Origin: Sulfuritalea hydrogenivorans sk43H
GTDB lineage: Bacteria; Pseudomonadota; Gammaproteobacteria; Burkholderiales; Rhodocyclaceae
NCBI RefSeq assembly: GCF_000828635.1
Contig: NZ_AP012547.1
Location: 1,612,001 to 1,676,000, forward strand
Length of the DNA: 64,000 nt
Direction of reading: 5' to 3'
A program made the position numbers and the translations under genes. A model generated the notes under the pieces. The model was given only the letters and a program-made list of their open reading frames with translations. It had not been told where the DNA came from and searched no databases. Positions 28,920 to 55,391 of the stretch are shown here, piece by piece. Each line of letters starts with the position of its first letter. Within the stretch, counting starts at the first letter, position 1.

Positions 28920-29321
28920 TCAGCTTGCCTTGGCGAGCTTGGCCTTCAGTCTTTGCGCCGTCTTCTCGACGCCGACAATGAAACGATTGTGCTTGCCGCG
29001 GGCCACTTCCTCCACGGAGTCGCGCGCAGTGAAGTCGAAGGAGACGGCACCGCCGTTGACCGCGGTCAGCGTCACGGTGATTTCCACCCACATGCCCAGC
29101 AGCGTGGCACCGACATGGTCCAGTTCGACCCGCGTGCCGACCGAGTCCTTGCCCGGGTCGATGTGTTCCAGCAGCAGGTCGCGGCAGGCCATCTCGATGT
29201 CGTAGAGCAGGTTGGGCGTCGAGTAGACCCGGCAGTCGTCGCCCATGAAGCTGATGGTGCGATCGCGGTCGATTTCAACGCGACGGGTGGCCGAGAGGCC
29301 GGCTTGCAGTGTTTCGCTCAT
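28920..29321 (-). CDS. FlK-like hotdog thioesterase
   Basis: A 133-residue hotdog-fold protein similar in pattern to fluoroacetyl-CoA-type thioesterases: YSTPNLLYDIEMACRDLLLE, DPGKDSVGTRVELDHVGATLLG and RHN-like end (VARGKHNRF). It should hydrolyse an acyl-CoA; the substrate is unknown. It sits 29 bp after the NDP-forming acyl-CoA synthetase on the same strand. The pair could set the free acid/CoA balance of an aryl or dicarboxyl intermediate. ATG 29321 is preferred over the longer open frame (to 29471), which is antisense-like. Confidence 0.75.
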   Translation of the reverse strand: MSETLQAGLSATRRVEIDRDRTISFMGDDCRVYSTPNLLYDIEMACRDLLLEHIDPGKDSVGTRVELDHVGATLLGMWVEITVTLTAVNGGAVSFDFTARDSVEEVARGKHNRFIVGVEKTAQRLKAKLAKAS

Positions 29322-29350: not shown

Positions 29351-31444
29351 TCAGCGGCGATTCTTGAGTGAGTTCGCATACAGGCGGGCCTCGACGTAGC
29401 GCACCAGGGCACGGGTGCCGCGTGCGCAGTTGCGGAACACGCAAACGCCCTGGTCCATCAGGCCGGCGCACATGGCGTCGTAGAGTTTTCCGCCATCGAC
29501 GATGCCGATGACCGGCTTTTCGTTGCCGTCGACCAGTGGCGGCATCAGATGCACCGTGCCCTTCGGGTCCGTGATGTCGAAGCCGGGGCGCAGCTTGCTT
29601 TGTTCCAGCGCCCGCACCGAGGGGGCCGTGGGGTCGAGTCCGACCACCACGGCGTCGATGTTGGGGTCCTGCAGGAAGGCTTCAACGATTTGCAGGTGGG
29701 CTTCGTCGTCGGCGCCAGGATTGATGTCGATCGGATTGCGGACCTCGACCAGCGAATTGAGCTTCTTGGCGAGCAGAATATCCTCGACATGTTTGACCGT
29801 GCCGGATTCGAGTTCGCCCATCGTCATCGCGAAGCTGTCCGATTCGATGGAGTCGGCCATGCCGACCGCCTCGAAACCCGCGCCGCTGATGGCGCCGAGG
29901 CGATTGCCGCCGATCTTTTTCTTGTGCAGCGCGCCGGCGATGTAGAACAGGTCGTCGAAGCTGTTGAAGTCCTCGGCGACGATGGCTCCCGCCTGGCGCA
30001 CGACCGACTCGAACAGTGTCGGGCTGCCGGCGATGGATGCGGTGTGGCCCATGACGCCGCCCATGCCGGGTGCGGTCCTGCCGGATTTGTAGACCACCAC
30101 CTGCTTGCCGTTGAGCACGGCCTTGCGCACCGCCCTGGCGAAGTCGAGGCCGTCGAGATCCTTGAAGCCTTCGATGTAGATGCCGAGCGTTTCGATTTCG
30201 GGCCGGTCGGCGAAGTAGCTCAGCATGTCGCCGTGGGTCAGGTCGGTCTGGTTGCCCAGCGCCAGCATGTAGCGCGGATCGAGCCATGGGTTCTGGCTCA
30301 GGCGGGTGATCATGAAGGCGCCGCTCTGGCTCAGCATCACCGAGTTTCTTTCGGGCTTCTTCTGCGGCTTCGGCAATCGCTCCAGCGGGATGAACCAGGA
30401 ATCGTAGGAACCGGGATGGGAGACCACGCCCAGACAGTTGGCGCCGAGGAATACGGGTCCGCCACCGGGCTTGCCGTGGGCTGCATTGATGCGTGCGGCC
30501 AATGCGGCGGCAGGCTCGCGGCTGGCCCTGGTTTCCCCGAGGCTGCCCGGGATCAGCATCACCGATTCGACGGAGTCCGTTTCGATGATCTCGTCGACCA
30601 GTTCGTAGACGGCGCTGGCGGCGACCGCCACGATCAGCAGGTCGAGCTTGTGGTCCAGCGCCTTCAGGCTTTCGACACATTTGACGCCATCGATCTCGGT
30701 TTCACCGGGACGGATGATGCACAGGCGTTCCTTGCTGTAGCCGCTGCCCATCAGGTTCTTCAGGATGATGCGGCCGAAATTCATGCTGGAAGACGAGACC
30801 CCGATGATGCCGATCGAAGCCGGATGAATCAGCTTGTCGATCTTGTGAATGGGGCGGGGCAAGCGGCGAGGCGACGGGACGCCGAACTCGCAATGCGCCG
30901 CGTGTACTGTCAGCCGGTCGCCGATGGTTGCGGGATCGAGGTCCAGGCGCTGCAACGCAAATTCGGCCTCCGGGTTGCCTGGCGCAAATGCCTTGGCCAG
31001 TTCAAGCATGCTTGCAAAGCAGGCCTTGAGCTGTGCGTCGGGGAGGTCGGTGCCCTCGCGTCGGGCGATCCGGGCAAGCCTTTGATAAGCCAGCGTGCGC
31101 CTGAACAGGTCGAGAAAATTCTCGGCATCCGTGAGTTCGGTGGCGGCGTAGACCGCGGCGCGATCCTTCCTGAAATTCCCTGCGTCCAGATCGGCATCGA
31201 GTCCGCCCATTCCGGCGCTGATGACCATGCCGAATTCACGGGTGTCGTTCAGGCTGATGCGGAGCTGAACGGGCTGTGCCGGTGCTGCATCCGCGGCGTA
31301 TGCGATGCCGAGGCCGGAAAGCAGGGTGCCCAGCTCGGTCTGGCTCAGAGTGACGCGCCCTGCGGCGGCGGCTTGTCCGAATAGCGCGGGCGTTGCCGGG
31401 CCTTTCGGCGCGGGATGGGTTCCCGATTGCGGGGGATTGCTCAT
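29351..31444 (-). CDS. NDP-forming acyl-CoA synthetase family protein, short ATP-grasp part
   Basis: A 697-residue protein. Residues about 30-185 resemble only the ends of an ATP-grasp_5 domain (LLSGLGIAYA, then FGMVISAGMGGLDADL). A CoA-binding domain (HPASIGIIGVSSSSMNFGR, about 207-225) and a succinyl-CoA-synthetase-like ligase domain follow. The phosphohistidine candidate is His467 in VMGHTASIAGSP. The middle ATP-grasp lobe that binds the nucleotide is missing, so activity may need a partner or be altered. Upstream lies a PaaX-type operator and a perfect FNR box, which ties it to anaerobic aryl-acid metabolism. Substrate unknown. Confidence 0.75.
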   Translation of the reverse strand: MSNPPQSGTHPAPKGPATPALFGQAAAAGRVTLSQTELGTLLSGLGIAYAADAAPAQPVQLRISLNDTREFGMVISAGMGGLDADLDAGNFRKDRAAVYAATELTDAENFLDLFRRTLAYQRLARIARREGTDLPDAQLKACFASMLELAKAFAPGNPEAEFALQRLDLDPATIGDRLTVHAAHCEFGVPSPRRLPRPIHKIDKLIHPASIGIIGVSSSSMNFGRIILKNLMGSGYSKERLCIIRPGETEIDGVKCVESLKALDHKLDLLIVAVAASAVYELVDEIIETDSVESVMLIPGSLGETRASREPAAALAARINAAHGKPGGGPVFLGANCLGVVSHPGSYDSWFIPLERLPKPQKKPERNSVMLSQSGAFMITRLSQNPWLDPRYMLALGNQTDLTHGDMLSYFADRPEIETLGIYIEGFKDLDGLDFARAVRKAVLNGKQVVVYKSGRTAPGMGGVMGHTASIAGSPTLFESVVRQAGAIVAEDFNSFDDLFYIAGALHKKKIGGNRLGAISGAGFEAVGMADSIESDSFAMTMGELESGTVKHVEDILLAKKLNSLVEVRNPIDINPGADDEAHLQIVEAFLQDPNIDAVVVGLDPTAPSVRALEQSKLRPGFDITDPKGTVHLMPPLVDGNEKPVIGIVDGGKLYDAMCAGLMDQGVCVFRNCARGTRALVRYVEARLYANSLKNRR

Positions 31445-31502
31445 GGTCGTGACTCCCTGGATTCCGTGTGATCAACGGATGCTGCACGGGGGCACTATAA
31501 CA

Positions 31503-31540
31503 GATACAAAAATATCAATAAGTTTTAACTCTAATGTATC
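31503..31540. promoter_or_regulatory. PaaX-type operator candidate before the acyl-CoA synthetase operon
   Basis: GATACA (31503-31508) and TGTATC (31535-31540) form an inverted pair 26 nt apart. The same pair with 27-nt spacing lies before fdhD (32921-32959). PaaX-family repressors bind inverted hexamers with long spacers. The site is 59 bp upstream of the ATG at 31444. Confidence 0.6.
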
Positions 31541-31542
31541 GG

Positions 31543-31556
31543 TTGATGTCCATCAA
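31543..31556. promoter_or_regulatory. perfect FNR-type box TTGAT-N4-ATCAA
   Basis: TTGAT-GTCC-ATCAA is a perfect match to the FNR/ANR consensus. It is 2 bp beside the PaaX-type operator and about 100 bp upstream of the acyl-CoA synthetase start. Anaerobic activation of this operon is the likely meaning. Confidence 0.6.
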
Positions 31557-31589
31557 TTTGGCTTGATTCCGGATGCGGGTGTCGCTTAA

Positions 31590-31856
31590 GAGCCTATTTC
31601 AGCAGGAATCGTGCCCCGCGTTGAGATCAGGATCGGATGGATGCAAGGCGCAGTGCGCCGCCAATGGTTGTTCCATTGGCAAGCGCTGCAACGGCGCAGA
31701 CGCCGATCCTGGTCTCAACCCGAAGGGCCGGCTGGCGTTGGGCGCGCTGCCACGTTGTCGGTCGTTTGCAGGGATATACCCTGCGGCGCTTCCTCCGCCT
31801 CGCATCGCATCCCAACGCCAACCGGCGCGGGGTACGATTCCTACTGAAATAGGCTC
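31590..31856. mobile_element. 267-bp MITE-like element with TAA target duplication
   Basis: Terminal inverted repeats of about 31 bp begin GAGCCTATTTCAG and differ at only two positions (C/T, G/A). The element is flanked by TAA on both sides (31587-31589 and 31857-31859). Inside are two further inverted repeats (GTTGAGATCAGGATCGG with its partner near 31703-31720, and GCCGGCTGGCGTTGGG with its partner near 31810-31826) and small hairpins (CAATGGTTGTTCCATTG, GCAGGGATATACCCTGC). There is no transposase. The right end supplies part of the stop codon of the PaaX-family gene. Confidence 0.8.
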
Positions 31857-32785
31857 TAAGTCGGCTCCAGTCCGCCGAAGCGCTCGTAGAAATAGGGTGC
31901 TGCCGGGGGCAGCGGCCCGTTGGCGGTCTCGCAGACGGAGAGCAGGTGCTGTTGTGCCAGCGGATAGGTGATGCCGTAGAGATCGCGGCACAACTGGCGG
32001 GCGACGCCGCCGCTCCAGTTGGCGGGAAGCAGCTGTGATGGCAGTTGCGGATCGTGCAGCAGGGCCCGTCGAAAGTCGTGCATGAGCAGCGTCTGCACCA
32101 GGAAACACTGCTCGGGATCGAGGCTGTTGGCGGCGCGCAAGGTACGCAGCACCGGCCTGAACAGCTCGATGAAATCGAGGTACCTGGCGGACAGGACTTC
32201 CAGGTTCCAGCAGTCATGCACCAGTTCCTGCAGCGGCTTGCTGGTCAGGGCGCTGATATTGACGGCCTTCATGGCCACGACCTTGTCGTGGGCGCCGGTT
32301 TCCTGAAGGATGTCCAGCAGCGCTTCGGTGTCCGCCGAGGGGTGCGCGAGTATGCCCGAGGCGAGCGCGCCGTAGCCGGCCCAGGCCAGATCCTTGCGCA
32401 GGGCGTCGCGCTGCGCGCCACCGAGCGAGGAGGGGATCATGACCAGTTGCCACTCGCCGGACCAGGTGTCCTGCGGCGCGAAATAGATCCGCCGGTAGGC
32501 ATGTTCGAAGCGGCGCCGGCCGGAGGTAGTCAGGCTGTAATAGCTCTTGCGGCCCAGTTGCTCTGAAACCAGCCACTTCTCCTGGGACAGGCGATAAACG
32601 CTGGTCCGCACCATGCGTTCGTTGAGGCCGAGCGGCTGGACCAGGCGAATGAAACTGCCGAGCCAGACGGTGCCGCCATGCGGGGCGATGAAGTCGCCAT
32701 ACACCGTGATGATCAGCGAATTGGCGCGAGTTGGATGCTGATCGAGGAAGTCCTTGATCCATTGGCTGATATGTCGACTCTTCAC
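31856..32785 (-). CDS. PaaX-family transcriptional regulator
   Basis: A 309-residue protein of PaaX length. The N-terminal winged helix has TRANSLIITVYGDFIAPHGG and GLNERMVRTSVYRLSQEKWLV, followed by the PaaX core (YYSLTTSGRRRFEHAYRRIY, then WQLVMIPSSLGG) and the C-terminal domain. PaaX represses phenylacetate genes and is released by phenylacetyl-CoA. It stands between two operons that carry the same operator type, and phenylacetyl-CoA is the PadB substrate, so it very likely controls the anaerobic pathway. Its stop codon overlaps the end of the MITE. Confidence 0.88.
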   Translation of the reverse strand: MKSRHISQWIKDFLDQHPTRANSLIITVYGDFIAPHGGTVWLGSFIRLVQPLGLNERMVRTSVYRLSQEKWLVSEQLGRKSYYSLTTSGRRRFEHAYRRIYFAPQDTWSGEWQLVMIPSSLGGAQRDALRKDLAWAGYGALASGILAHPSADTEALLDILQETGAHDKVVAMKAVNISALTSKPLQELVHDCWNLEVLSARYLDFIELFRPVLRTLRAANSLDPEQCFLVQTLLMHDFRRALLHDPQLPSQLLPANWSGGVARQLCRDLYGITYPLAQQHLLSVCETANGPLPPAAPYFYERFGGLEPT

Positions 32786-32920
32786 ATTGTTCCTCTATGA
32801 GGGCCTGAGCATGCCGACAACAGGGCGGCTTGATCCGCGGGTGGATCCGGCCTGGCGCTGCATCGGGCGAAGCCGGGAATGCAAACCGCTTGAGTGCGCA
32901 GTATAAGACAACTCTAATGT

Positions 32921-32959
32921 GATACAAAATTATTGTATTTAATCTTGGTAAAGTGTATC
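32921..32959. promoter_or_regulatory. PaaX-type operator candidate before fdhD-pad
   Basis: GATACA (32921-32926) and TGTATC (32954-32959) form an inverted pair with a 27-nt spacer. A second palindrome ATACAA-N5-TTGTAT overlaps the left half (32922-32938). The site lies in the 226-bp space between the divergent PaaX-family gene and fdhD. Confidence 0.6.
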
Positions 32960-33011
32960 GTAATGGCAGTAGGGGTAAGTTTGATTGCTTCCATTTCAGG
33001 CGAGGCGGGCA

Positions 33012-33827
33012 ATGCGACACGAAGCGGGTGTGGGCATCGAGGCACATAACAGATACGGCGCTTGTCGCTGGGACGGCGGCATTGCCACGCATTCGGACGA
33101 GACGGTGGCGGAAGAAGTGCCGGTGGCGCTGGTCTATAACGGCATCTCGCATGCCGTGATGCTGGCCACGCCGTTGGACCTCGAAGACTTTGCCCTGGGT
33201 TTCAGCCTGAGCGAATGCATCGTCGGCCGTGCCGGCGAAATCCACGATCTGGAAATCGTCGAGCGCGACAACGGCATCGAAGTCCATATGCAGCTCTCCG
33301 CCGAGCGCGCCCATGTCCTCAAGCAGCATCGGCGGACACTGGCCGGTCGCACCGGTTGCGGCCTCTGCGGTTCGGAAAGCCTCGATCAACTGGCAAAGCG
33401 GGCGACTACGGTCCGGTCTTCCGCGGTGTTGAACACCGGTGCCTTGCCGCGTGCCTTGTCGGCACTGCAGGAAATGCAGCAGTTGTTTGAATTGACGGGG
33501 GCGGTGCATGCCGCCGCCTGGTGCGACTTCCACGGCGGCATCGACCTGGTGCGGGAGGACGTCGGGCGCCACAACGCGCTCGACAAGCTGATCGGTTCCC
33601 TGGCGTCGCAGCGCAAGAGCTTTGACAGCGGCTTTGTCCTCATGACCAGCCGCGCCAGTTACGAAATCGTGCAGAAAGCAGCGGCTGTCGGCATCGCGGT
33701 GGTAGCCGCGGTTTCGGCGCCGACCGGCATGGCGGTCAGGGTGGCGGTCGACTCTGGCGTCACGCTGATCGGTTTTGCCCGTGGTGAGCGGCACTGTGTC
33801 TATTCGCATCCCGAACGCGTTCATTAG
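33012..33827 (+). CDS. fdhD: formate dehydrogenase accessory sulfurtransferase FdhD
   Basis: A 271-residue FdhD with the active-site Cys pair in GRTGCGLCGSESL and the family region SECIVGRAGEIHDLE. FdhD passes sulfur from IscS to the Mo-bis-MGD cofactor of its client. No formate dehydrogenase is nearby, and the gene leads the pad operon 15 bp before padB, so the likely client is the PadB molybdoenzyme. ATG 33012 is chosen over the upstream TTG at 32985. Confidence 0.9.
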   Translation: MRHEAGVGIEAHNRYGACRWDGGIATHSDETVAEEVPVALVYNGISHAVMLATPLDLEDFALGFSLSECIVGRAGEIHDLEIVERDNGIEVHMQLSAERAHVLKQHRRTLAGRTGCGLCGSESLDQLAKRATTVRSSAVLNTGALPRALSALQEMQQLFELTGAVHAAAWCDFHGGIDLVREDVGRHNALDKLIGSLASQRKSFDSGFVLMTSRASYEIVQKAAAVGIAVVAAVSAPTGMAVRVAVDSGVTLIGFARGERHCVYSHPERVH

Positions 33828-33842
33828 TCGAGGAATCCGAGC

Positions 33843-36590
33843 ATGGAAGCGCAAGCCAAGTCAGTCAAACGGGTTCCGACCTACTGCTACAACTGCGTGT
33901 CGGGCCCCGACCTGATGAACATCAAGGTGGTCGATGGCATCGCCACCGAGGTCGAGCCGAATTTCGCCGCCGCGGACGTGCACCCGGCCAAGGGGCGGGT
34001 CTGCGTCAAGGCCTATGGCCTGGTGCAGAAGACCTACAACCCCAACCGCATCCAGACCCCGATGAAGCGCACCAACCCGAAGAAGGGGCGCAACGAGGAT
34101 CCGGGTTTCGTGCCGATATCCTGGGACGAGGCGCTCGACATCGTGGCGGGCAAGCTCAAGGCCGTGCGCGCCAAGGGCCTGCTCGACGAGGCGGGCCTGC
34201 CGCGGGTGGCGGTCAGCCTCGGCCACGGCGGCACGCCGTCGAATTACATGGGCACTTTTCCGGCTTTCCTCGCCGCCTGGGGCGAAGTGGATTTCAGCTT
34301 CGGTTCCGGCCAGGGCGTCAAGTGCGTGCATTCCGAGCATCTCTACGGCGAGTTCTGGCATCGCGGCTTCACCGTCGCCGCCGATACGCCGAACTGCCGC
34401 TACAACATCGCCGTCGGCGCCAACGTCGATGTCACGGGGGGGCCCTGCGCCGTGATCCGCCATGCCGATGCGCGCGTGCGCGGCTACAAGCGCGTGCAGG
34501 TCGAGCCGCACCTGACGGCGACGGGCGCCTGCTCCGCCGAATGGGTACCGATCCGGCCCAAGACCGATCCGGCTTTCCTCTTCGCCCTGATCCACGTGCT
34601 GGTGCGCGAGAACGGGCTGGAAAAGCTCGACATTCCCTTCCTGCGCGACCGTACCGCTTCGCCCTATCTGGTGGCGCCCGACGGCCTCTATCTGCGCGAT
34701 CCGCAAAACGGCAAGCCACTGGTATGGGATGAAACCACGGCCAGCGCCGTGCCGCACGACACGCCGGGCGCACGGCCCGCCGTTGCCGGCGCCTACCGCG
34801 TCGCCCATGCAGTCGTGGTCGATGCCGACAAGGAGCGGCGCGAGTATGCGGACGTCGAAGGCAAGACCGCCTACGAAATGCTGGCGCGGCACATCGACAA
34901 ATACACGCCGGAGTGGGCCGAGAGCATCTGCGACGTGAAGGCGGAAACCATACGCCGCATCGCCAACGAATACCTTGCAGCCGCCGGCATCGGCGAGACC
35001 ATCGAAATCGACGGCAAGACCCTGCCGCTGCGACCGGTCGCGGTGACGCTGGGCAAGTCGGTGAACAACGGCTGGGGCGCCTACGAATGCTGCTGGGCGC
35101 GCACCGTGCTCGCGGCGCTGGTGGGTGCGCTGGAAAACCCGGGCGGCCTGGTCGGCACCACGGTGCGGCTCAACAAGTCGCGCGACAACCGCCATCTCTC
35201 GGTGAAGCCGGGCGATGACGGCTTCATGGTCCAGTATTTCAACCCGACCACCAAGGAAGAATGGCAGGCGGCGCCCTCGACGCGCAACCTGCACCAGACC
35301 CTGGTGCCCATCGTCGGCCACAACGGCGCCTGGAGCCAGGCCCTCGGCCCCACGCAACTGGCCTGGATGTTCCAGGGCGAGCGTCCCGACGACTGGACCA
35401 TGCCGATGCCGACGCTGCCGGAAGTATGGCTGGTGTATCGGTCGAATCCGTCGATTTCCTTCTGGGACACGCGTCACCTGGCGGAGATCGCGGCGAAGTT
35501 TCCCTTCATGGCCTGCGTCGCCTACACGGTGGATGAGACCAACTACATGGCCGACGTGCTGCTGCCCGAGGCGACCGACCTCGAATCGACGCAGATGATC
35601 CGCATGGGTGGCACCAAGTACATGGAGCAGTTCTGGGACCACAGGGGTGTGGTGCTGCGCCAGAAGGCCGTCGAACCGCAGGGCGAGGCGCGCGATTTCA
35701 CCTGGATCACCACCGAGCTGGCCAAGCGCACCGGCCTGCTCGAACCCTACGTGAATGCCATCAACAAGGGTGTTTCCGGGGTGTCGCCGCTGAAGGGCGA
35801 GGGCTACGACTTCAGCCTCGACACGGCGGTCGAGCCCGCCCCCGAAAAAATCTGGGACGCGGTCTGCCGCGCCGCGACCGTAACGCTGTCCGAAGGCCGC
35901 GAGGAACACGACCTCGAATGGTTTCGCGAGCACGGCTTCTATACCGTGCCGATGTCGCGCCTCGACTGGTACCTGACGCCGACCATGGAAAAGCACGGCC
36001 TGCGTTATGAACTGCCCTATCAGGAACGCTTGCTGCTTGCCGGTCGCGAACTCGGTCGTCGCCTGCATGAGAGCAAGATGAACTGGTGGGATGAGCAGCT
36101 CTCCGAATACACCGCGCTGCCGGAGTGGCACGACGTGCCGGGGCGCTGGATCCGCAATCTGGAAAAGAGCGGGGCCAGGGCCGAGGACTTCCCCTTCTGG
36201 CTGCTGACCACCAAGAGCATGCAATACCACGCCGGCGGCAACGCGGCGATCGAGGTCATGCACGAAGTGGCGCAGAACCTGCGCGGTCACGCCGGCGTCA
36301 TCATCAACGCCAAAACGGCGGCCTCGCTCGGCATCGCCGAAGGCGATCGCGTCGAGGTGCGCTCCCACATCGGCGCCACCTACGGCAAGGCCGCGCTGGC
36401 GCAGGGCGTGCGCCCCGACACGCTGGTGATCATCGGCCAGTTCGACCATTGGGCGACGCCCTTTGCCAAGACGATGGAGGCGCCCAGCCTCAACAGCATT
36501 GCACCGATGTCGCTGGACCTGACGGATGCCACGGGCTCGGGCGCCGACATCGTGCGGGTCAGCGTACGCCGCATGGAGGCTTCGGCATGA
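33843..36590 (+). CDS. padB: phenylacetyl-CoA:acceptor oxidoreductase, Mo subunit PadB
   Basis: A 915-residue DMSO-reductase-family Mo-bis-MGD subunit. The N-terminal cluster region has TYCYNCVSGPDL with Cys15 and Cys18, and GRVCVKAYG with Cys54; the third position of the usual four-Cys motif is not a Cys. MGD-binding motifs include GHGGTPSNYMG and GGNAAIEVMHEVAQNL. With PadC and PadD it oxidises phenylacetyl-CoA to phenylglyoxylate with quinone as acceptor and with thioester loss. There is no obvious Tat signal. The stop overlaps padC by 4 bp. Confidence 0.88.
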   Translation: MEAQAKSVKRVPTYCYNCVSGPDLMNIKVVDGIATEVEPNFAAADVHPAKGRVCVKAYGLVQKTYNPNRIQTPMKRTNPKKGRNEDPGFVPISWDEALDIVAGKLKAVRAKGLLDEAGLPRVAVSLGHGGTPSNYMGTFPAFLAAWGEVDFSFGSGQGVKCVHSEHLYGEFWHRGFTVAADTPNCRYNIAVGANVDVTGGPCAVIRHADARVRGYKRVQVEPHLTATGACSAEWVPIRPKTDPAFLFALIHVLVRENGLEKLDIPFLRDRTASPYLVAPDGLYLRDPQNGKPLVWDETTASAVPHDTPGARPAVAGAYRVAHAVVVDADKERREYADVEGKTAYEMLARHIDKYTPEWAESICDVKAETIRRIANEYLAAAGIGETIEIDGKTLPLRPVAVTLGKSVNNGWGAYECCWARTVLAALVGALENPGGLVGTTVRLNKSRDNRHLSVKPGDDGFMVQYFNPTTKEEWQAAPSTRNLHQTLVPIVGHNGAWSQALGPTQLAWMFQGERPDDWTMPMPTLPEVWLVYRSNPSISFWDTRHLAEIAAKFPFMACVAYTVDETNYMADVLLPEATDLESTQMIRMGGTKYMEQFWDHRGVVLRQKAVEPQGEARDFTWITTELAKRTGLLEPYVNAINKGVSGVSPLKGEGYDFSLDTAVEPAPEKIWDAVCRAATVTLSEGREEHDLEWFREHGFYTVPMSRLDWYLTPTMEKHGLRYELPYQERLLLAGRELGRRLHESKMNWWDEQLSEYTALPEWHDVPGRWIRNLEKSGARAEDFPFWLLTTKSMQYHAGGNAAIEVMHEVAQNLRGHAGVIINAKTAASLGIAEGDRVEVRSHIGATYGKAALAQGVRPDTLVIIGQFDHWATPFAKTMEAPSLNSIAPMSLDLTDATGSGADIVRVSVRRMEASA

Positions 36591-37234
36591 CACGTTATGT
36601 GATGACCATCGACCTTCGCCGTTGCGTCGGCTGCCAGACCTGCACCGCGGCCTGCAAGGGTGCCAATGCGACGCCCCCGGGCATCCAGTGGCGGCGCGTG
36701 CTCGACATCGAAAGCGGCGAATTTCCCGATGTGAAGCGCAGCTTCCTGCCGGTCGCCTGCATGCACTGCGCCAACCCGCCCTGCGAAGAGGTCTGCCCAA
36801 CCCAGGCCACCACCAGGCGCGCGGACGGCTTGGTGGCGATCGACTATGACCTCTGCATCGGCTGCGCCAACTGCGTCATGGCCTGCCCCTATGACGCCCG
36901 CTCCATCGTCCATGAGCCGCGCTACGCCTACAACGACACGGCGATGGCGTCGGAAGCCAAGCGTTTCGATCCGGACCGCATCGGCGTTTCGATGAAATGC
37001 ACCTTCTGCAAGGATCGCATCGACCACGCGGCAGTCAGCGGCCAGATTCCCGGCGTCGATCACGAGGTGACGCCGGCCTGTGTCAATTCCTGCATCTCCG
37101 GCGCGATGGGCTTCGGCGACATCGAGGACCCGGAAAGCGGCGTCAGCCGCCTGCTCGCGGAAACACAGCATTTCCGCATGCACGAAGAACTGGGCACCGA
37201 ACCCGGCGTGTATTACATCTGGGACAAGTCATGA
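36587..37234 (+). CDS. padC: phenylacetyl-CoA:acceptor oxidoreductase, Fe-S subunit PadC
   Basis: A 215-residue DmsB/NrfC-type subunit with four [4Fe-4S] cysteine groups: CVGCQTCTAACKG, CMHCANPPCEEVCPT, CIGCANCVMACPYDA and CTFCKDRI with later CVNSC. It carries electrons from PadB to PadD. ATG 36587 overlaps the padB stop. The frame is open far upstream, antisense-like, and is not used. Confidence 0.9.
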   Translation: MTRYVMTIDLRRCVGCQTCTAACKGANATPPGIQWRRVLDIESGEFPDVKRSFLPVACMHCANPPCEEVCPTQATTRRADGLVAIDYDLCIGCANCVMACPYDARSIVHEPRYAYNDTAMASEAKRFDPDRIGVSMKCTFCKDRIDHAAVSGQIPGVDHEVTPACVNSCISGAMGFGDIEDPESGVSRLLAETQHFRMHEELGTEPGVYYIWDKS

Positions 37235-38151
37235 AGATATCCGCACTTCGTGCCGCCGAGCTCGCCGCGCCCAAGCAGCAGCGCAACTGGGACTGGCGCG
37301 CCGCCGCCAACTTCATCTGCGGCGGCGCCGGCGGCGGCCTGCTGTTCTGGGCGGCATTCGCCGGCCTCGACCCTGTTGCGCTACGGGTCGCCGTGCTGCT
37401 GGGCCTCGCACTCATCGCCGGTGGTTTGACCTGCGTCTGGTTCGAAATCGGGCGTCCCTGGCGCGCGCTCAACGTCTATCGCCACATCGCGACCTCGTGG
37501 ATGACGCGCGAGGCGGTGGTGGCCTTGCTGGTGTTCGCCGCCGGCGGACTGGCGTTGCTGACGGCCAACGCGCTGCCGGCCTTGTTTGCCGGAGTTCTCG
37601 GCCTCGGCTTTCTCTATAGCCAGGCGCGCATCCTGGCGGCGAACAAGGGGATTCCGGCCTGGCGCAATCGGCGCAGCATTCCGCTGATGGTCGCCACCGG
37701 CCTCGCTGAAGGCGCCGGCTTTCTCGCCTGCGTGCTGTCGCTGACGTCCGCCGGGGCCGGCCTCCCGATGCTGGTGGGCCTGATCGTGCTGATCGGCGCC
37801 CGCGCATTGTTCTGGCACAGGTATCTCGGCGCGCTGGTTGCCGACGGCGCACCCGACGCAACGCTGAAGGTACTGGGCGGGATTGCCGCACGGCTTGCGG
37901 TATTCGGGCATATCCTGCCGGCATTGTTTGTCATGGCGGCTGTGGCGGGGATGCCGGGACGGGGCGGGCTGGTCTTTGTCGCCGGCATCATGGCGGTTGC
38001 CGGGGGCTGGTTCCTGAAGTTCACCCTGGTGCGGCGCGCGGCGTATACCCAGGGACTCGCATTGCAGCACATGCCCATGCGCGGGCAGGGAGCGGCGGGA
38101 GCCGCCGCAAAGCCCGGCTGGAAGGCGATGCCGGGGGCCAAGGCAGGTTAG
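37231..38151 (+). CDS. padD: phenylacetyl-CoA:acceptor oxidoreductase, membrane anchor PadD
   Basis: A 306-residue DmsC/NrfD-like membrane protein with about eight hydrophobic segments (for example AANFICGGAGGGLLFWAAFA). The cytoplasmic tail is Gly/Ala-rich. It anchors the complex and passes electrons to quinone. The ATG at 37231 overlaps the padC stop (ATGA). Confidence 0.85.
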   Translation: MKISALRAAELAAPKQQRNWDWRAAANFICGGAGGGLLFWAAFAGLDPVALRVAVLLGLALIAGGLTCVWFEIGRPWRALNVYRHIATSWMTREAVVALLVFAAGGLALLTANALPALFAGVLGLGFLYSQARILAANKGIPAWRNRRSIPLMVATGLAEGAGFLACVLSLTSAGAGLPMLVGLIVLIGARALFWHRYLGALVADGAPDATLKVLGGIAARLAVFGHILPALFVMAAVAGMPGRGGLVFVAGIMAVAGGWFLKFTLVRRAAYTQGLALQHMPMRGQGAAGAAAKPGWKAMPGAKAG

Positions 38152-38214: not shown

Positions 38215-38787
38215 ATGTACGAAGTACGCTTTCATGGCCGGGGAGGGCAGGGCGCCGTTACGGCGGCGGCCATGCTTGCGGCCGCGTTACTGGAAGAGGG
38301 CAAGTTCGCGGTATCGATTCCGTCCTTCGGCTTCGAGCGGCGCGGCGCGCCGGTGGTTTCCTTCCTGCGCTGCAGCGATCGCGAGATCCGCCAGCTCACC
38401 AACATCTACACGCCCGATTGCCTGATCTGCGTCGATCCGACGCTGGCCAGAACCGTGGATATCTTCGGCGGGCTCAAGCCGGGCGGCACGCTGGTGCAGG
38501 CGACCAACAAGCCGCTGGCGGAGGTGGCGCTGTCACCCAACGTCGCCACGGTCGGTCTCTGCGATGCGATCGGGATTGCCTTGCAGATATTCAGCAAGCC
38601 GATCACCAATACCCTGATGTTGGGCGCATTCGCCAGGACGACCGGCGTGGTGTCGCTGGATGCCTTGAAGCGCTCGCTGGAAGATTCGGATTTTCGTGAC
38701 GCCGGGCTGAAGCAAAACTTGCTTGCGCTTGAGCGCGGCTACAACGAAACCACCGTGCATACGATAGAACGGAGGGCCGCGGCATGA
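38215..38787 (+). CDS. padE: phenylglyoxylate:acceptor oxidoreductase, gamma subunit PadE
   Basis: A 190-residue 2-oxoacid:ferredoxin oxidoreductase gamma subunit: YEVRFHGRGGQGAVTAAAML, SIPSFGFERRGAPV. It handles the CoA side of the reaction. It begins 63 bp after padD and overlaps padF by 4 bp. The five-subunit enzyme decarboxylates phenylglyoxylate to benzoyl-CoA. Confidence 0.88.
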   Translation: MYEVRFHGRGGQGAVTAAAMLAAALLEEGKFAVSIPSFGFERRGAPVVSFLRCSDREIRQLTNIYTPDCLICVDPTLARTVDIFGGLKPGGTLVQATNKPLAEVALSPNVATVGLCDAIGIALQIFSKPITNTLMLGAFARTTGVVSLDALKRSLEDSDFRDAGLKQNLLALERGYNETTVHTIERRAAA

Positions 38788-39083
38788 GCCGGCATGAGAG
38801 CTATCCGCTATTCAATCTGAAGCAGGCGAATGTGCCGGACGACCTTTGCCCGGTCGCCACCGAAGTCAGCCCGATGCTGCCCGGTGACTGGCGCAGCATG
38901 CGGCCCGTGGTCGATCGCGACAAGTGCGTCAAGTGCGCCGTGTGCTGGCTGTATTGCCCGGTGCAATGCGTCGAGGAAAAGCCGGCCTGGTTCGATTTCA
39001 ACCTGAAGACCTGCAAGGGCTGCGGCATCTGCGCCAATGAGTGCCCGCAGCGCGCGATCACCATGATTCCGGAGGCGACATGA
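38784..39083 (+). CDS. padF: phenylglyoxylate:acceptor oxidoreductase, delta (ferredoxin) subunit PadF
   Basis: A 99-residue protein with two [4Fe-4S] motifs: CVKCAVCWLYCPVQC and CKGCGICANECPQRA. It is the delta subunit type of POR. The gene overlaps padE. It is followed by a 49-bp space holding a copy of the dispersed repeat. Confidence 0.88.
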   Translation: MSRHESYPLFNLKQANVPDDLCPVATEVSPMLPGDWRSMRPVVDRDKCVKCAVCWLYCPVQCVEEKPAWFDFNLKTCKGCGICANECPQRAITMIPEAT

Positions 39084-39088
39084 GCCTG

Positions 39089-39116
39089 AATCGCCGTAAC
39101 GCCAGCGCCGACTCTT
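39089..39116 (+). repeat. dispersed 28-bp repeat between padF and padG
   Basis: A nearly full copy: AATCGCCGT-AA-CGCCAGCGCCGACTCTT. It fills most of the padF-padG spacer and so is inside the operon. Confidence 0.65.
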
Positions 39117-39132
39117 ACGCTTCGGAGGCCGC

Positions 39133-40389
39133 ATGACTACCGCCACGCTTGAAACGCCGAATCAGACGAAACCGGCGAAGCAGAAGGTCATCCTCTGCGA
39201 AGGTAACGAGGCCGCCGCATTGGGCGTCGCCCTGGCGCGGCCTGACATGGTCGCCGTGTATCCGATTACGCCGCAGTCCTCGCTGGTCGAGCACGTCGCC
39301 AAGCTGATCGCCGACGGCCGCATGGATGCCGACATCGTCGATGCCGAGGGTGAGCATTCGGTGCTCTCCGTGCTGCAAGGCGGGGCACTCGCCGGCGCGC
39401 GGACCTACACCGCGACCTGCGGTCCCGGCCTTGCCTTCATGTTCGAACCCTATTTCCGTACTTCCGGCATGCGCCTGCCGATCGTCATGTCCATCGTCAC
39501 GCGCGACGGCATCACGCCGCAGTCGGTGTGGGGCGGGCACCAGGATGCGATGACGGTGCGCGAGGTGGGCTGGGTGCAGGTGTATTGCGAGACGGTGCAG
39601 GAAGTGCTCGACACCACCATCATGGCCTTCAAGATCGCCGAACACCACGACGTGATGCTGCCGGTGAATGTCTGCCTCGATGGCAACTACCTTTCCTACG
39701 GAACCTCGCGCGTCGAACTGCCTGACCAGGCCGAGGTCGATGCCTTCATGGGCGTCAAGGATGTGAACTGGCATGTCGCGCTCGATCCGCTGCGGCCGAT
39801 GGCGGTCGATCCGCTGACCGGCGGTTCGGGTGGCAAGGGGCCGTCGACTTTCGTCCGCTACCGCAAGGGACAGTGCAAGGGCATGCAGAACTCGCTGCGC
39901 GTGATCGAGGAAGTGCATGCGGAATGGGCGCAGCGTTTCGGTCGCAGTTTCGCGCCGCTGGTCGAGGAGTACCGGCTCGACGGCGCCGACTATGCGATCA
40001 TGACCCTGGGCAGCATGACGGGCGCGGCCAAGGATGCGATCGACGAGGCGCGCGACGCCGGCAAGAACGTAGGCCTGATCAAGCTCAAGACCTTCAGCCC
40101 CTTCCCGGTGGAGGCGCTGCTGAAATCCCTCAACAAGATTCAGGCGCTGGGCGTGGTCGATAGATCGGTCGGCTTCCGCTGGAACTGCGGGCCGATGTAC
40201 CAGGAGACCATGGGCGTGCTCTATCGCCTCGGGCGCCACGTGCCGTCGATGAGCTTCATCGGCGGCCTGGCCGGTGCCGACATCACGGTGGGGCATTTCC
40301 ATCGCGTCATCGAGGCCACGGAAAAACTGCTGAGCAGCCCCAGTGTCACGATGACGATCGAGCCGGTCTGGCTCAACGAGAAGGATTGA
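39133..40389 (+). CDS. padG: phenylglyoxylate:acceptor oxidoreductase, alpha subunit PadG
   Basis: A 418-residue alpha subunit: LCEGNEAAALGVALARPDMVAVYPITPQSSLVEH at the N-terminus (pyrimidine/TPP domain) and GGHQDAMTVREVGWVQVYCE. It forms the active site with PadI. The stop overlaps padH by 4 bp. Confidence 0.88.
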   Translation: MTTATLETPNQTKPAKQKVILCEGNEAAALGVALARPDMVAVYPITPQSSLVEHVAKLIADGRMDADIVDAEGEHSVLSVLQGGALAGARTYTATCGPGLAFMFEPYFRTSGMRLPIVMSIVTRDGITPQSVWGGHQDAMTVREVGWVQVYCETVQEVLDTTIMAFKIAEHHDVMLPVNVCLDGNYLSYGTSRVELPDQAEVDAFMGVKDVNWHVALDPLRPMAVDPLTGGSGGKGPSTFVRYRKGQCKGMQNSLRVIEEVHAEWAQRFGRSFAPLVEEYRLDGADYAIMTLGSMTGAAKDAIDEARDAGKNVGLIKLKTFSPFPVEALLKSLNKIQALGVVDRSVGFRWNCGPMYQETMGVLYRLGRHVPSMSFIGGLAGADITVGHFHRVIEATEKLLSSPSVTMTIEPVWLNEKD

Positions 40390-41645
40390 CCATGGAACAG
40401 ACCAAATACCTGGTGGTCGGCAGCAGCCATGCGGCGCTCGAAGCCGTGACGGCGATTCGCATGCATGACCCGGAAGGCAGCCTGACGCTGCTGACGCGAG
40501 ATCCGCATCTGCCATATTCGCCGACCGTGCTGCCCTATGTCGTTTCAGGCCGTTCCGCGCCCGATGGCATTTTCCTGCGCGACGAGAAGTTTTTTGCCGA
40601 CAATCATGTTGCGCTGAAGCGTGGCACGGCGTTGAAATTCCTGCACGCGGAACGCAATGCCGCCGAGCTTGCCGATGGCAGCGAAATCGCCTACGAGAAA
40701 ATTCTGCTTGCCACTGGCGCATCGCCCGCGATTCCGCCGATTCCAGGTATCGATCAGGTGTCGTATCACGTGCTGCGTACACTCGACGACGCGACCAAAC
40801 TGGGTGCGGCGATCAAGCGCTCGAAACAGGCTGTGGTTCTGGGCGCGGGGCTGGTCGGCATGCATGCCGCAGAGAATCTGGTGAAAGTCGGCGCTGGCGT
40901 TACGGTGGTCGAGATGGCAAAACAGCTCACCGACGGCTATTTCGACCCGGTCGCCGCGCAACTGATAGAAAAGGCCTTCACCGACAACGGCGCCAGAATC
41001 CTGACCGGCAGCCGCGTTGTGAAACTCGCCCCATCTGCCATTGGCGTCACGCTGACGCTGGAAAACGGCACCACGCTGGAAGCCGACTTGCTGCTGGTGG
41101 CCACCGGCGTCAGGCCGAACATGGACTATCTGGCCGGGAGCCGGGTTGAGCAGGACAAGGGCATTCTCGTCAGCGACAGCATGCAGACCAGCGTCGCCAA
41201 TGTCTGGTCAGCCGGCGATTGCGCCCAGGCCAGGGGATTCTTCACCGACGCCAAAGTGATGAACGCGATCCTGCCGGACGCCACCGAGCAGGGCCGCATC
41301 GCCGGCATGGCGATGGCGGGCGATCCCGGGCTGAAGGCTTATCCGGGAGGCGTGCCGCTCAACACCTATCACTTCTTCGGCCGCCATGCGATTTCGGTCG
41401 GGTCGAGCAAGGTGCCCGAAGGCGCCGAGGTGGTGACACGATTCGACGAGGCCAGCGGTCGTTACCTCAAGGTGATTTTCAACGAGGGACGCCTGCTGGG
41501 CATCTATGGCGTCAATGAGTTCTTCGACGGCGGCGTGATGTGCCAGCTGATCCTGCGGCGCGTCGATCTCTCGCCGGTGAAGGAACGCTTCGTCGCGAAT
41601 CCGCTGCTGGTCGGCCGCGAACTGATGTCGAAACTCTGGCGCTAG
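40386..41645 (+). CDS. padH: phenylglyoxylate oxidoreductase FAD/NAD(H) subunit PadH
   Basis: A 419-residue pyridine-nucleotide disulfide-type oxidoreductase. It has the FAD site YLVVGSSHAALEAV, an NAD site VVLGAGLVGMHAAENL and WSAGDCAQA. No redox-active disulfide is seen. It passes electrons from the Fe-S centres to NAD+, as in the NAD-linked phenylglyoxylate enzyme of Azoarcus. A repeat copy (40883-40905) overlaps the VGAGVTVVE strand. Confidence 0.87.
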   Translation: MTMEQTKYLVVGSSHAALEAVTAIRMHDPEGSLTLLTRDPHLPYSPTVLPYVVSGRSAPDGIFLRDEKFFADNHVALKRGTALKFLHAERNAAELADGSEIAYEKILLATGASPAIPPIPGIDQVSYHVLRTLDDATKLGAAIKRSKQAVVLGAGLVGMHAAENLVKVGAGVTVVEMAKQLTDGYFDPVAAQLIEKAFTDNGARILTGSRVVKLAPSAIGVTLTLENGTTLEADLLLVATGVRPNMDYLAGSRVEQDKGILVSDSMQTSVANVWSAGDCAQARGFFTDAKVMNAILPDATEQGRIAGMAMAGDPGLKAYPGGVPLNTYHFFGRHAISVGSSKVPEGAEVVTRFDEASGRYLKVIFNEGRLLGIYGVNEFFDGGVMCQLILRRVDLSPVKERFVANPLLVGRELMSKLWR

Positions 41646-41653
41646 GACAGATC

Positions 41654-42997
41654 ATGACAAGAGCCTACAACACCATCGCTTTCGACGCCGCCAAATGCGA
41701 TGGCTGCGGCGACTGCATGACGGCCTGCGCCACGGCGAAAGTCGGCGTTGGCGACACGGCGCGTTCGCGCATCCAGATCGTCGGCAGTGCCGATGACGGT
41801 TTTGAACTGGCGCTATGCCGCCAGTGCGGCGACCCCAAATGCGTCACGGTCTGCCCGGCCGGCGCCTTGACCAAGGACGGCCTCAGCGGGGTCATCGCCT
41901 GGGATGGCGCAAAGTGCGTCGATTGCCTGCTGTGTACCGTCGGCTGCGCCTACGCCGGCATCGCGCTCGACGCGGGAACCGGCCACGTCGCCAAGTGCGA
42001 CACCTGCGACGGTGCCCCCGCTTGCGTGCCGGCCTGCCCGCACGAGGCGCTGACCTACGTGACGACCTCGCGCATCTACAACGAAGTCGGCGACTGGGAG
42101 GACCTTTTCGCTCCGGGGCTGGCCGGTTGCCAGGGCTGCAATACCGAACTGCTGATGCGCCACACGCTGCGCCGCGTGGGGCCGGAGACGGTACTGGCGA
42201 CGCCACCGGGCTGCGTGCCGGGCATGGGCTCGGTCGGCTTCAACGGCACCACCGGCACCAAGGTTCCGGTCTTCCATCCGCTGCTGACCAACACCGCCGC
42301 CATGCTGGCCGGCATCAAGCGCCAGTACAAGCGCGTCGGCCGCGATGTCACCGCGCTGGCCATTGCCGGCGACGGCGGTGCTTCGGACGTTGGATTCCAG
42401 TCGTTGTCCGGTGCCGCCGAGCGCAACGAGCAGATCCTGTTCATGGTGGTCGATAACGAGGGTTACATGAATACCGGCATGCAGCGGTCGAGCTGTACGC
42501 CTTACGGCGCCTGGACTTCGACCACGCCGGTGGGGCAGGGCTCGGGCGGCATGCCCTCGCAGGGCAAGACGCAGGACGCCAAGAATCTGCCGCTGATCAT
42601 GGTCAACCATCGCTGCGAATATGTGGCGACGGCCTCGACCGCGTACATGGAAGACCTTTACGAAAAGCTCGACAAGGCCATCCAGGCCTCGAAGCGCGGT
42701 TTTGCCTACCTGCATGTCTATTCGCCCTGCACCACGGGCTGGCGCTTTCCTACCGACCAGAACATGGAAGTGGCGCGCAAGGCGGTGGAAACCAATTTTG
42801 TGATGCTCTGGGAGTACACCCCCGGCGACGGTCTGCAATTCACCCGGCCGGTGGATGACCCGCTGCCGGTGACCGACTATCTGAAGGCGATGGGGCGCTT
42901 CCGCCACCTGAGCCCCGATCAGATTTCACACATTCAGTCCAAGGTCGTGGAAAATCTCGCTTTCGTCAAACAAATGGCTCATCGACAAGGCGCATAA
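41654..42997 (+). CDS. padI: phenylglyoxylate:acceptor oxidoreductase, beta subunit PadI
   Basis: A 447-residue fusion. An N-terminal ferredoxin domain with four Cys groups (CDGCGDCMTACATA, CRQCGDPKCVTVCPAG, CVDCLLCTVGCAYA, CDTCDGAPACVPACP) is joined to a TPP-binding beta subunit with AIAGDGGASDVGF and DNEGYMNTGMQRS. It is the decarboxylating subunit. ATG 41654 begins the ferredoxin domain. A repeat copy lies at 41737-41761. Confidence 0.88.
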   Translation: MTRAYNTIAFDAAKCDGCGDCMTACATAKVGVGDTARSRIQIVGSADDGFELALCRQCGDPKCVTVCPAGALTKDGLSGVIAWDGAKCVDCLLCTVGCAYAGIALDAGTGHVAKCDTCDGAPACVPACPHEALTYVTTSRIYNEVGDWEDLFAPGLAGCQGCNTELLMRHTLRRVGPETVLATPPGCVPGMGSVGFNGTTGTKVPVFHPLLTNTAAMLAGIKRQYKRVGRDVTALAIAGDGGASDVGFQSLSGAAERNEQILFMVVDNEGYMNTGMQRSSCTPYGAWTSTTPVGQGSGGMPSQGKTQDAKNLPLIMVNHRCEYVATASTAYMEDLYEKLDKAIQASKRGFAYLHVYSPCTTGWRFPTDQNMEVARKAVETNFVMLWEYTPGDGLQFTRPVDDPLPVTDYLKAMGRFRHLSPDQISHIQSKVVENLAFVKQMAHRQGA

Positions 42998-43008: not shown

Positions 43009-44319
43009 ATGAGCAAGCAGGACAGCAATCTGGAACCGATCGAGAAGGCAAGCCGGGACGAACTGCAGGCGCTGCAGCTGAAGCGCATGCAGTGGTCGCT
43101 GCAGCATGTCTACGACAACGTGCCGCACTATCGGCAGAAATACGATGCCGCCGGGGTGCACCCCGGCGACCTGAAGCAGTTGTCCGATCTGGCGAAGTTT
43201 CCCTTCACGACCAAGCTCGACCTGCGCGATACCTATCCGTATGGCATGTTCGCGACGCCGATGAAGGATGTGGTGCGCGTCCATGCGTCGTCGGGCACCA
43301 CCGGCAAGCCGACGGTGGTCGGCTACACGAAGAACGACATCGCGATGTGGGCGCAACTGATGGCGCGTTCGATGCGCGGCGCCGGCTGTTCGGCGGACGA
43401 CATCATCCTCAATTCCTACGGCTACGGCCTGTTTACCGGCGGCCTCGGCGCCCATTACGGCGGCGAATTCCTGGGCGCCACGGTGATCCCGATGTCCGGC
43501 GGCCAGACCGAGAAGCAGGTGCAGCTGATCCAGGATTTCAAGCCCACGGTGATCATGTGTACGCCGTCCTATGTGCTGACCATCGCCGACGAAATGATCA
43601 AGCAGGGCATGAAGCCGAATGGAAGCACCCTGCGCGTCGGCCTGTTCGGCGCGGAGCCCTGGACCAACGAAATGCGGCGCGAAATCGAGGAGCGCCTCGG
43701 CATCGATGCCGTTGACATCTACGGCCTGTCGGAAGTCATGGGCCCGGGAGTCGCCTGCGAATGCGTCGAAACCAAGGACGGTCCGCACATCTGGGAAGAC
43801 CATTTCTATCCCGAGATCATTCATCCGGAAACCGGCGAAGTGCTGCCCGACGGCGAAATCGGCGAGCTGGTGTTTACCTCGCTGTCCAAGGAAGCGCTGC
43901 CCATCATCCGTTACCGCACCCGCGACCTGACGCGGCTCTTGCCGGGAACCGCCCGTACCATGCGGCGCATGGAAAAGATCACCGGTCGCAGCGACGACAT
44001 GCTGATCATTCGCGGCGTGAATGTGTTCCCGACGCAGATCGAAGAGGTCCTGCTGAAGAACCCGAACCTGTGTGCCCAGTATCAATTGCAGGTGTCGCGC
44101 GACGGACATCTCGACAAGCTGGATGTCTACGTCGAGGTGCGTGCCGATCTTTCGAGTTCGATCGGCGAACAGAAGCGTCGCGAGATCGGCGCCGAGGTGA
44201 AGCACCATATCAAGGCCCTGGTGGGGGTCAGCGCCGATGTCCACGTCGTGGAAACCGACAAGGTCGAAAGAACCCTGGTGGGTAAGGCCAAGCGGGTCAT
44301 CGACCGGCGGCCAAAATAG
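43009..44319 (+). CDS. padJ: phenylacetate-CoA ligase PadJ
   Basis: A 436-residue AMP-forming ligase of the PaaK type: VHASSGTTGKPTVVGYT (P-loop), GYGLFTGGLGAHYGGEF, YGLSEVMGPGVACEC and DMLIIRGVNVFPTQIEE. It activates phenylacetate at the entry of the pathway. It is the last gene of the pad operon, 11 bp after padI. Confidence 0.92.
   Translation: MSKQDSNLEPIEKASRDELQALQLKRMQWSLQHVYDNVPHYRQKYDAAGVHPGDLKQLSDLAKFPFTTKLDLRDTYPYGMFATPMKDVVRVHASSGTTGKPTVVGYTKNDIAMWAQLMARSMRGAGCSADDIILNSYGYGLFTGGLGAHYGGEFLGATVIPMSGGQTEKQVQLIQDFKPTVIMCTPSYVLTIADEMIKQGMKPNGSTLRVGLFGAEPWTNEMRREIEERLGIDAVDIYGLSEVMGPGVACECVETKDGPHIWEDHFYPEIIHPETGEVLPDGEIGELVFTSLSKEALPIIRYRTRDLTRLLPGTARTMRRMEKITGRSDDMLIIRGVNVFPTQIEEVLLKNPNLCAQYQLQVSRDGHLDKLDVYVEVRADLSSSIGEQKRREIGAEVKHHIKALVGVSADVHVVETDKVERTLVGKAKRVIDRRPK

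Positions 44320-53966: not shown

Positions 53967-55391
<1,425 letters not shown>

Follow-up and report, generated by a model that had tools for sequence, protein, structure and literature searches.

A conserved, putative PaaX-type operator at the anaerobic phenylacetate operon and at a CoA ligase-like–thioesterase operon in Sulfuritalea hydrogenivorans and its relatives

Introduction

In Escherichia coli, the operator of the regulator PaaX has been published as TGATTC-N27-GAATCA and occurs, according to the available part of that work, at the paaZ, paaA and paaX promoters (PMC9493321). The accessible text of a 2026 survey of phenylacetate pathways treats PaaX within the aerobic hybrid pathway (PMC13186573). 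For anaerobic aromatic pathways, repressors that respond to aryl-CoA thioesters are known, for example MbdR and BzdR, from a report whose available sections name PaaX without an anaerobic target (PMC4424350). In Aromatoleum aromaticum EbN1, a padR gene (EbN1_C30890) has been assigned to the anaerobic phenylacetate (pad) cluster; the available portion of that paper gives neither its family nor an operator or targets (PMC9765128). A PaaX operator at pad genes was not found in the open-access literature searched. Here we analyse a 64-kb stretch of the S. hydrogenivorans sk43H genome (the window), in which a PaaX-family gene lies between two inverted hexamer pairs, one before the pad operon and one before an operon headed by a CoA ligase-like gene that we call SYN.

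Results

Two exact inverted pairs flank a PaaX gene

The pairs GATACA-N26-TGTATC before SYN and GATACA-N27-TGTATC before fdhD and the pad genes are both exact and lie at the positions and spacings given in the initial annotation of this DNA (Table 1). The annotation had called their occurrence unlikely by chance, and shuffling bears this out: none of 100 dinucleotide-preserving shuffles of the 64-kb window yielded GATACA-N20-32-TGTATC, a pattern found twice in the real window. Only the pairing is unusual, because lone GATACA hexamers are common (14 observed, 9.62 expected). Genome-wide (3.80 Mb), three exact pairs occur at N24–29, against one match of a reversed-pattern control and about 0.4 expected from base composition with 61% G+C assumed. 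Relaxing the search to one mismatch gave six N26 and three N27 sites, whereas the reversed controls gave none; these nine comprise the three exact sites, two sites side by side before a probable paa lower-pathway operon (identified by eye) and four others. The third exact pair has a second PaaX gene on one side and a PaaA-like gene on the other. A scan of 31400–33000 found no terminator-like site, so a hairpin, terminator or RNA element at the sites was discarded.

Two details of the first description had to be corrected. The spacing is not equal, being N26 at the SYN site and N27 at the pad site, and this one-base difference is itself conserved. The sites were described as marking the only two outward-facing promoters, which overlooks that of paaX itself; its predicted −35 falls within the left half-site before pad.

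Table 1. Features of the window discussed in the text (window coordinates).
Feature	Coordinates	Strand	Evidence or remark
FlK-type hot-dog thioesterase gene (flK)	28920..29321	-	PF22636, E 4.4e-29, 101.1 bits, cut-off 27
SYN, CoA ligase-like	29351..31444	-	CoA-binding and succinyl-CoA-ligase flavodoxin domains, phospho-His motif, half ATP-grasp
SYN–flK extended −10 (predicted), TGTTATAGT	31494..31499	-	Conservation
PaaX-type operator (putative), SYN–flK promoter	31503..31540	-	Exact GATACA-N26-TGTATC
FNR/ANR box (predicted), TTGATGGACATCAA (TTGAT-N4-ATCAA)	31543..31556	-	Exact, 2 bp upstream of operator
paaX (pad-linked)	31856..32785	-	TIGR02277, 304.8 bits, cut-off 264.55
paaX −10 TATACT (predicted)	32900..32905	-	Sequence
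PaaX-type operator (putative), before fdhD–pad and across paaX −35	32921..32959	+	Exact GATACA-N27-TGTATC
paaX −35 TTGTAT (predicted), left half of pad operator	32922..32927	-	Kept in 25/32 sites
pad operon −35 TTGTAT (predicted), inside operator	32933..32938	+	TTG 97–100% per base in 32 distinct pad sites
pad operon −10 TATCGT (predicted), overlaps right half-site	32956..32961	+	TATCGT 30/32, TATCAT 2/32 (sites selected for the TTG)
fdhD, sulfurtransferase for molybdoenzyme, first pad operon gene	32985..33827	+	Start codon uncertain
padB-type molybdopterin oxidoreductase	33843..36590	+	Name presumed from position
padD-type membrane anchor, DmsC family	36997..38151	+	Name presumed from position
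padE–I region, phenylglyoxylate dehydrogenase subunits	38215..42997	+	PadG, PadH and PadI over NCBIfam cut-offs
padJ, phenylacetate-CoA ligase	43009..44319	+	TIGR02155, 706.1 bits, cut-off 646.3

The gene between the sites had been assigned to the PaaX family from the outset, and it scores above the PaaX equivalog cut-off. Its product carries the domains PaaX, PaaX_M and PaaX_C in that order, with the E. coli PaaX structure 8a39 as its best solved relative (E 1.4e-66); the genome encodes one further PaaX, 63% identical to it. The sites share with PaaX operators the inverted half-sites, whose centres are about 33 bp apart (N26 and N27 between the hexamers), and their location at predicted promoters of phenylacetate genes. 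The half-sites read GATACA/TGTATC instead of TGATTC/GAATCA, and the left end of the pad site reads TGATAC. Because one base differs in each half-site, we class them as a variant operator and not as the E. coli consensus. In the E. coli K-12 genome, TGATTC-N27-GAATCG stands immediately ahead of paaA.

A MITE-like inverted repeat with 43-nt arms, 84% complementary, occupies 31578–31868 between the SYN promoter and paaX. One of its ends overlaps the paaX stop codon, and a similar end sequence is present at 27316–27331.

The pairs are conserved at promoters chosen by gene

The proposed regulon was held to fail if homologous pad loci lacked the pair; the pair is conserved there, and the idea survived. 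The 100% hexamer columns of our site alignment are no evidence for this, because those sites were chosen by the exact pattern. In their place we use counts at promoters picked by gene and not by motif, from 50 named loci found via PaaX, leaving out loci that showed fewer than 200 bases or lacked a match at the N-terminus (within 40 residues). Upstream of fdhD, the exact pair with N27 is present in 30 of 31 named relatives, and the remaining one, Aromatoleum anaerobium, has a single mismatch. Upstream of SYN, the exact pair with N26 is present in all 28. Mononucleotide-shuffled copies of these upstream regions contained no exact pair (0/1180). The exact N27 pair also occurs in A. buckelii and in MAGs labelled Ramlibacter, Gammaproteobacteria and Burkholderiales; most of the genomes compared belong to one genus.

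Outside that genus, a family sample of 249 genomes gave 46 padB matches, of which 37 were fetched: the upstream region holds an exact pair in 15, a pair with a single mismatch in 12 and none even at one mismatch in 10. This wiring is therefore not universal among pad clusters. The fetched stretches covered up to 2.5 kb before padB and 1.5 kb before SYN, and the pair does not always adjoin the gene; in L191, some 430 bases separate it from SYN downstream. One record is common to this set and the PaaX-locus set (L204, L037). Eight of the 12 one-mismatch padB sites end in TGAATC, nearer to the E. coli half-site. PaaX genes only 43–50% identical also adjoin the motif, exactly in L049 and L052 and with one mismatch in L055.

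In eleven of the 50 named PaaX loci (L031, L041–L048, L053 and L054), the stretch that was fetched lacks any pair, even with one mismatch allowed. The most telling of these exceptions is L031, from a genome whose single exact match is at N28. At L031:8461–10921, this MAG, labelled Propionivibrio dicarboxylicus, has a PaaX gene about 87% identical to that of the window and a padJ-like gene, with no pair nearby.

Predicted promoters place the operators over or beside polymerase contacts

Because a general promoter scan of 31400–33000 reported no sigma-70-like site, the extended −10 of SYN included, the promoter placements in Table 1 rest on conservation. The predicted paaX promoter has TTGTAT 16 bp before TATACT in the window, and across sites its −10 is less well kept than TTGTAT. 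Just downstream of the SYN operator, TGTTATAGT or TGATATAGT is found in 34 of 35 distinct sites. At most PaaA-type genes, a TTGACA −35 precedes the operator and the left half of the operator falls within the spacer.

The SYN operator sits between its extended −10 and a predicted FNR box, an exact match to the consensus TTGAT-N4-ATCAA. Its centre lies about −61.5 from the inferred start (−60.5 in N25 sites), which agrees with a class I or II placement and which we take to be class I. An exact box occupies the same place at 20 of the 35 distinct SYN sites, and 22 of 35 have one anywhere within 40 bp upstream. At the pad promoter of the window there is no FNR box, the best candidate having three mismatches; a one-mismatch box is present in 3 of 31 pad–paaX intergenic regions.

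A model for repression by PaaX

We propose, with a probability of about 0.88, that the pairs are PaaX-family operators that repress pad, paaX and SYN–flK until phenylacetyl-CoA appears, and that the PaaX encoded between them is most likely the repressor. The link to PaaX rests on the operator layout, which is that of E. coli, and on the presence of sites beside other paaX and paaA genes. Around the conserved PaaX regulon at pad and SYN–flK, which we regard as real, we infer the promoter positions, PaaX binding, repression, FNR action and phenylacetyl-CoA as effector.

Without phenylacetyl-CoA, a PaaX dimer would hold both half-sites, about 32–33 bp apart centre to centre, and block RNA polymerase. 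At the pad site it would cover the pad promoter, with the −35 inside and the −10 overlapping the right half, together with the −35 of paaX; because the site spans both promoters, one operator could repress the pad operon and paaX itself. At the SYN site, PaaX would sit between the FNR box and the −10, and FNR would add anaerobic activation. Given this position of the operator, SYN–flK would need both the loss of oxygen (through FNR) and the substrate (through PaaX release). Activation of phenylacetate to phenylacetyl-CoA would then release PaaX. Since the same operator precedes phenylacetyl-CoA oxygenase-type genes elsewhere in the genome, one signal would open both routes and oxygen would choose between them.

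The proposed regulon extends to aerobic paa genes

The initial annotation had proposed a regulon in which phenylacetyl-CoA controls the anaerobic pathway together with the synthetase. The conserved pad and SYN sites uphold that core; its scope was too narrow, as sites also occur at aerobic paa genes and at paaX. Across 61 genomes (the window's own and relatives), hand-summed counts gave 95 forward pattern matches and 5 for the reversed control. Among the 31 genomes of the genus, 24 have at least three matches, five have two and two have one.

We examined the third site in 20 genomes of the genus. In ten of them, including the window's own, it precedes a diverged PaaA-like gene, with a PaaX gene opposite in nine. 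In the other ten, it precedes a PaaA gene only 24–27% identical to the diverged one of the window genome; the three of these that were checked are conventional PaaA genes (TIGR02156, 420–434 bits, cut-off 280). All of these latter ten genomes have a single PaaX_C match, which implies a lone PaaX for the pad, SYN and aerobic paaA sites there. Only five of the ten are 99–100% complete (G004, G007, G010, G017 and G022), and a paralogue may have escaped detection in the other five. Elsewhere, G033 has an N25 pair between genes that by eye resemble paaZ and paaG.

The third site of the window genome was ruled out as a canonical paaA site, as the gene scores 73.7 bits against the TIGR02156 cut-off of 280. 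The diverged gene is followed by a conserved 137-aa ORF without a Pfam match. PF05138 matches number only three in the window genome, of which two were tested and score far below the PaaA cut-off; this genome may therefore use another phenylacetyl-CoA oxygenase.

Further observations concern these genes. At L001:355–2862 (contig C1 of the own genome, about 1486368–1488875), the second PaaX gene diverges from the diverged PaaA-like di-iron protein gene. At L145 (own genome, near C1:2912975–2913979), another PaaA-like protein heads an operon that by eye comprises an enoyl-CoA hydratase, a PaaI-like thioesterase and a thiolase; it diverges from flavodoxin- and PaaY-like genes, with two putative one-mismatch operators between. 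In the window, 54606–55088 (minus strand) gives a weak, below-cut-off PF05138 match within a 490-aa open frame, possibly a BoxB-type benzoyl-CoA epoxidase.

SYN and a FlK-type thioesterase belong to the pad clusters

The gene after SYN, which the initial annotation omitted, starts 29 nt past the SYN stop codon and is likely the second gene of the same operon. The protein has a PF22636 domain in common with the fluoroacetyl-CoA thioesterase FlK and keeps T35, E43 and H69, aligned with T42, E50 and H76 of FlK, presumably the catalytic residues of that enzyme; it is predicted to be a thioesterase and, unlike FlK, stands in a phenylacetate operon. Eight further loci (L192–L194, L201, L217, L218, L222 and L223) likewise have a FlK gene, placed ahead of padB or fdhD or opposite to one of them.

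SYN itself had been labelled an NDP-forming acyl-CoA synthetase, and it is probably not a complete one. It shares with such synthetases (9y43, 4xym, 2csu) the CoA-binding domain, the flavodoxin domains, the phospho-His motif and the overall fold. The motif reads GHTASIAGS, and its H467, which we take to be the phosphorylated histidine, is among the invariant columns of alignment A2. In contrast, the ATP-grasp profile is recognizable only in its second half: the first 200 residues match PF13549 over positions 108–205 of 221 (E 0.0012, 18.7 bits, cut-off 27.6), and SYN falls far below the cut-offs of four NCBIfam ligase models. Because only half of the ATP-grasp_5 profile is matched, the label is unsafe and SYN may not bind ATP alone. 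A fold model (mean pLDDT 74.5) matches the 3-hydroxypropionyl-CoA synthetase 9y43 over nearly its full length (TM 0.76). A structure comparison with 9y43 gave Z 27.8 and rmsd 3.6 over 617 aligned residues; it bears little on the first 195 residues, which may have another fold.

Nor is SYN an orphan, as had been supposed. It lies inside pad clusters in sister genera and is thus a pad gene. We studied its range within the family, because among 300 genomes of the order (E 1e-60) only the window's own gave a match. SYN is present in 32 of 249 family genomes, 31 of which also have padB, itself found in 47 (Fisher value 1.3e-26, relatedness ignored); the exception (G519) has a padB fragment beside SYN at a contig end. 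Outside the genus, SYN gave 26 matches, 23 of which were fetched: nine have the operator (eight exact, one with one mismatch), 11 stand directly after padJ, one after padI, one after a padD-like match and one in an ambiguous setting. A Sterolibacterium MAG has SYN and padB divergent, and the short region between them contains one exact and one one-mismatch pair. A separate locus, L021:11074–15502, has two tandem SYN-like genes, the second 54% identical to the SYN of the window.

On the way from phenylacetyl-CoA to phenylglyoxylate, the thioester step is commonly assigned to PadBCD alone. We put forward, tentatively and with the odds against it, that SYN (a CoA-ligase relative that keeps the phospho-His without the ATP-binding half) and the FlK-type protein are overlooked pad-pathway genes that could carry out or rescue this step, with one PaaX operator type as the common switch of both routes in Rhodocyclaceae-type bacteria.

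Alternative readings of the sites

The sites might be PaaX operators at which the acting protein is mainly the second paralogue, or the pad-linked PaaX might answer another ligand (phenylglyoxylate, benzoyl-CoA). The genome does hold two PaaX genes, and the hexamers are identical at all three exact sites; the second paralogue, encoded near the third site, could share the sites, and the two proteins could compete for them. The ten related genomes with one detected PaaX nevertheless keep the sites, and the pad-linked copy passes the PaaX equivalog cut-off, which makes this reading unlikely.

Lower still we rate the proposal that the two sites flanking paaX act together, with PaaX looping some 1.4 kb of DNA for cooperative repression of the outward operons. 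It draws on the two exact sites that flank paaX in 27 of 27 named loci with fdhD, paaX and SYN all in view, and on an operator-like pair just 3′ of paaX, present although no gene starts there, in 6 of the 11 pad loci from beyond the genus that have paaX and sufficient room behind it (L035, L036, L037, L202, L203 and, with one mismatch, L198). This count omits L034, where the contig ends, and L039, where a FlK gene follows the 3′ site. The repression model gives no account of the 3′ pair. On the other side, five of the 11 loci lack it (L195, L196, L197, L199 and L200), the insertion of a repeat has made the gap in the window about 290 bp longer, and unlinked single sites exist. In Ca. Desulfobacillus denitrificans, SYN–flK and padB lie far from paaX and from each other, each with its own exact pair.

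The 3′ pairs have the coordinates L035:4661–4698, L036:11037–11074 and L037:6241–6279. By eye, their hexamers bracket a GC-rich hairpin in L035, L036, L202 and L203.

That some other DNA-binding protein reads the pair, with paaX a mere neighbour, would fit the 11 named PaaX loci without a pair nearby. We consider it highly improbable: the motif stands beside PaaX genes of 43–50% identity and before paaA, the layout equals that of the published PaaX operator, and, among 25 of the 61 genomes without a PaaX_C match, an exact N25–27 pair occurs only in G019, which is 83% complete and has its pad promoter near a contig end (L079). Five others of these genomes have a single match each, at N24, N28 or N29. 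Chance, or unselected sequence shared by descent, has a negligible probability: although most compared genomes come from one genus, site interiors vary far more than the hexamers, which are kept at gene-chosen promoters and absent as exact pairs from the 1180 shuffled copies, and exact pairs turn up again in Aromatoleum, in further genera of the family and in the differently labelled MAGs.

Discussion

PaaX is known as the aerobic phenylacetate repressor, and a recognizable operator now ties it to the anaerobic pad operon across the family. Repression by PaaX, the reading we prefer, would place the aerobic and anaerobic phenylacetate routes under one signal, with the predicted FNR box adding oxygen control on one arm. 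The operator motif also provides a precise handle for finding further pad-pathway genes, and it points to SYN and the FlK-type thioesterase.

The closest described system is PaaX of E. coli, compared here as far as the available text of PMC9493321 describes it. Common to both are a PaaX equivalog, inverted half-sites about 33 bp apart, a site at paaA and, as predicted here, a location on promoters and autoregulation. The half-site is TGATTC in E. coli and TGATAC here; the spacing here, 25–27, is counted on GATACA, whereas the N27 of E. coli is counted on TGATTC. Unlike in E. coli, the sites extend beyond paa-type genes to the anaerobic pad operon and SYN–flK, and a predicted FNR box adjoins the SYN site. 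In Aromatoleum, PaaX-family genes occupy the position of EbN1 padR in A. buckelii and A. anaerobium, from which we infer that padR is PaaX-like; the accessible part of PMC9765128 names padR without a family, an operator or targets to set beside those proposed here. MbdR and BzdR, on the available text of PMC4424350, are released by the first CoA thioester of their pathway, as we propose for PaaX. In contrast to PaaX, they belong to the TetR and XRE families and bind other operators.
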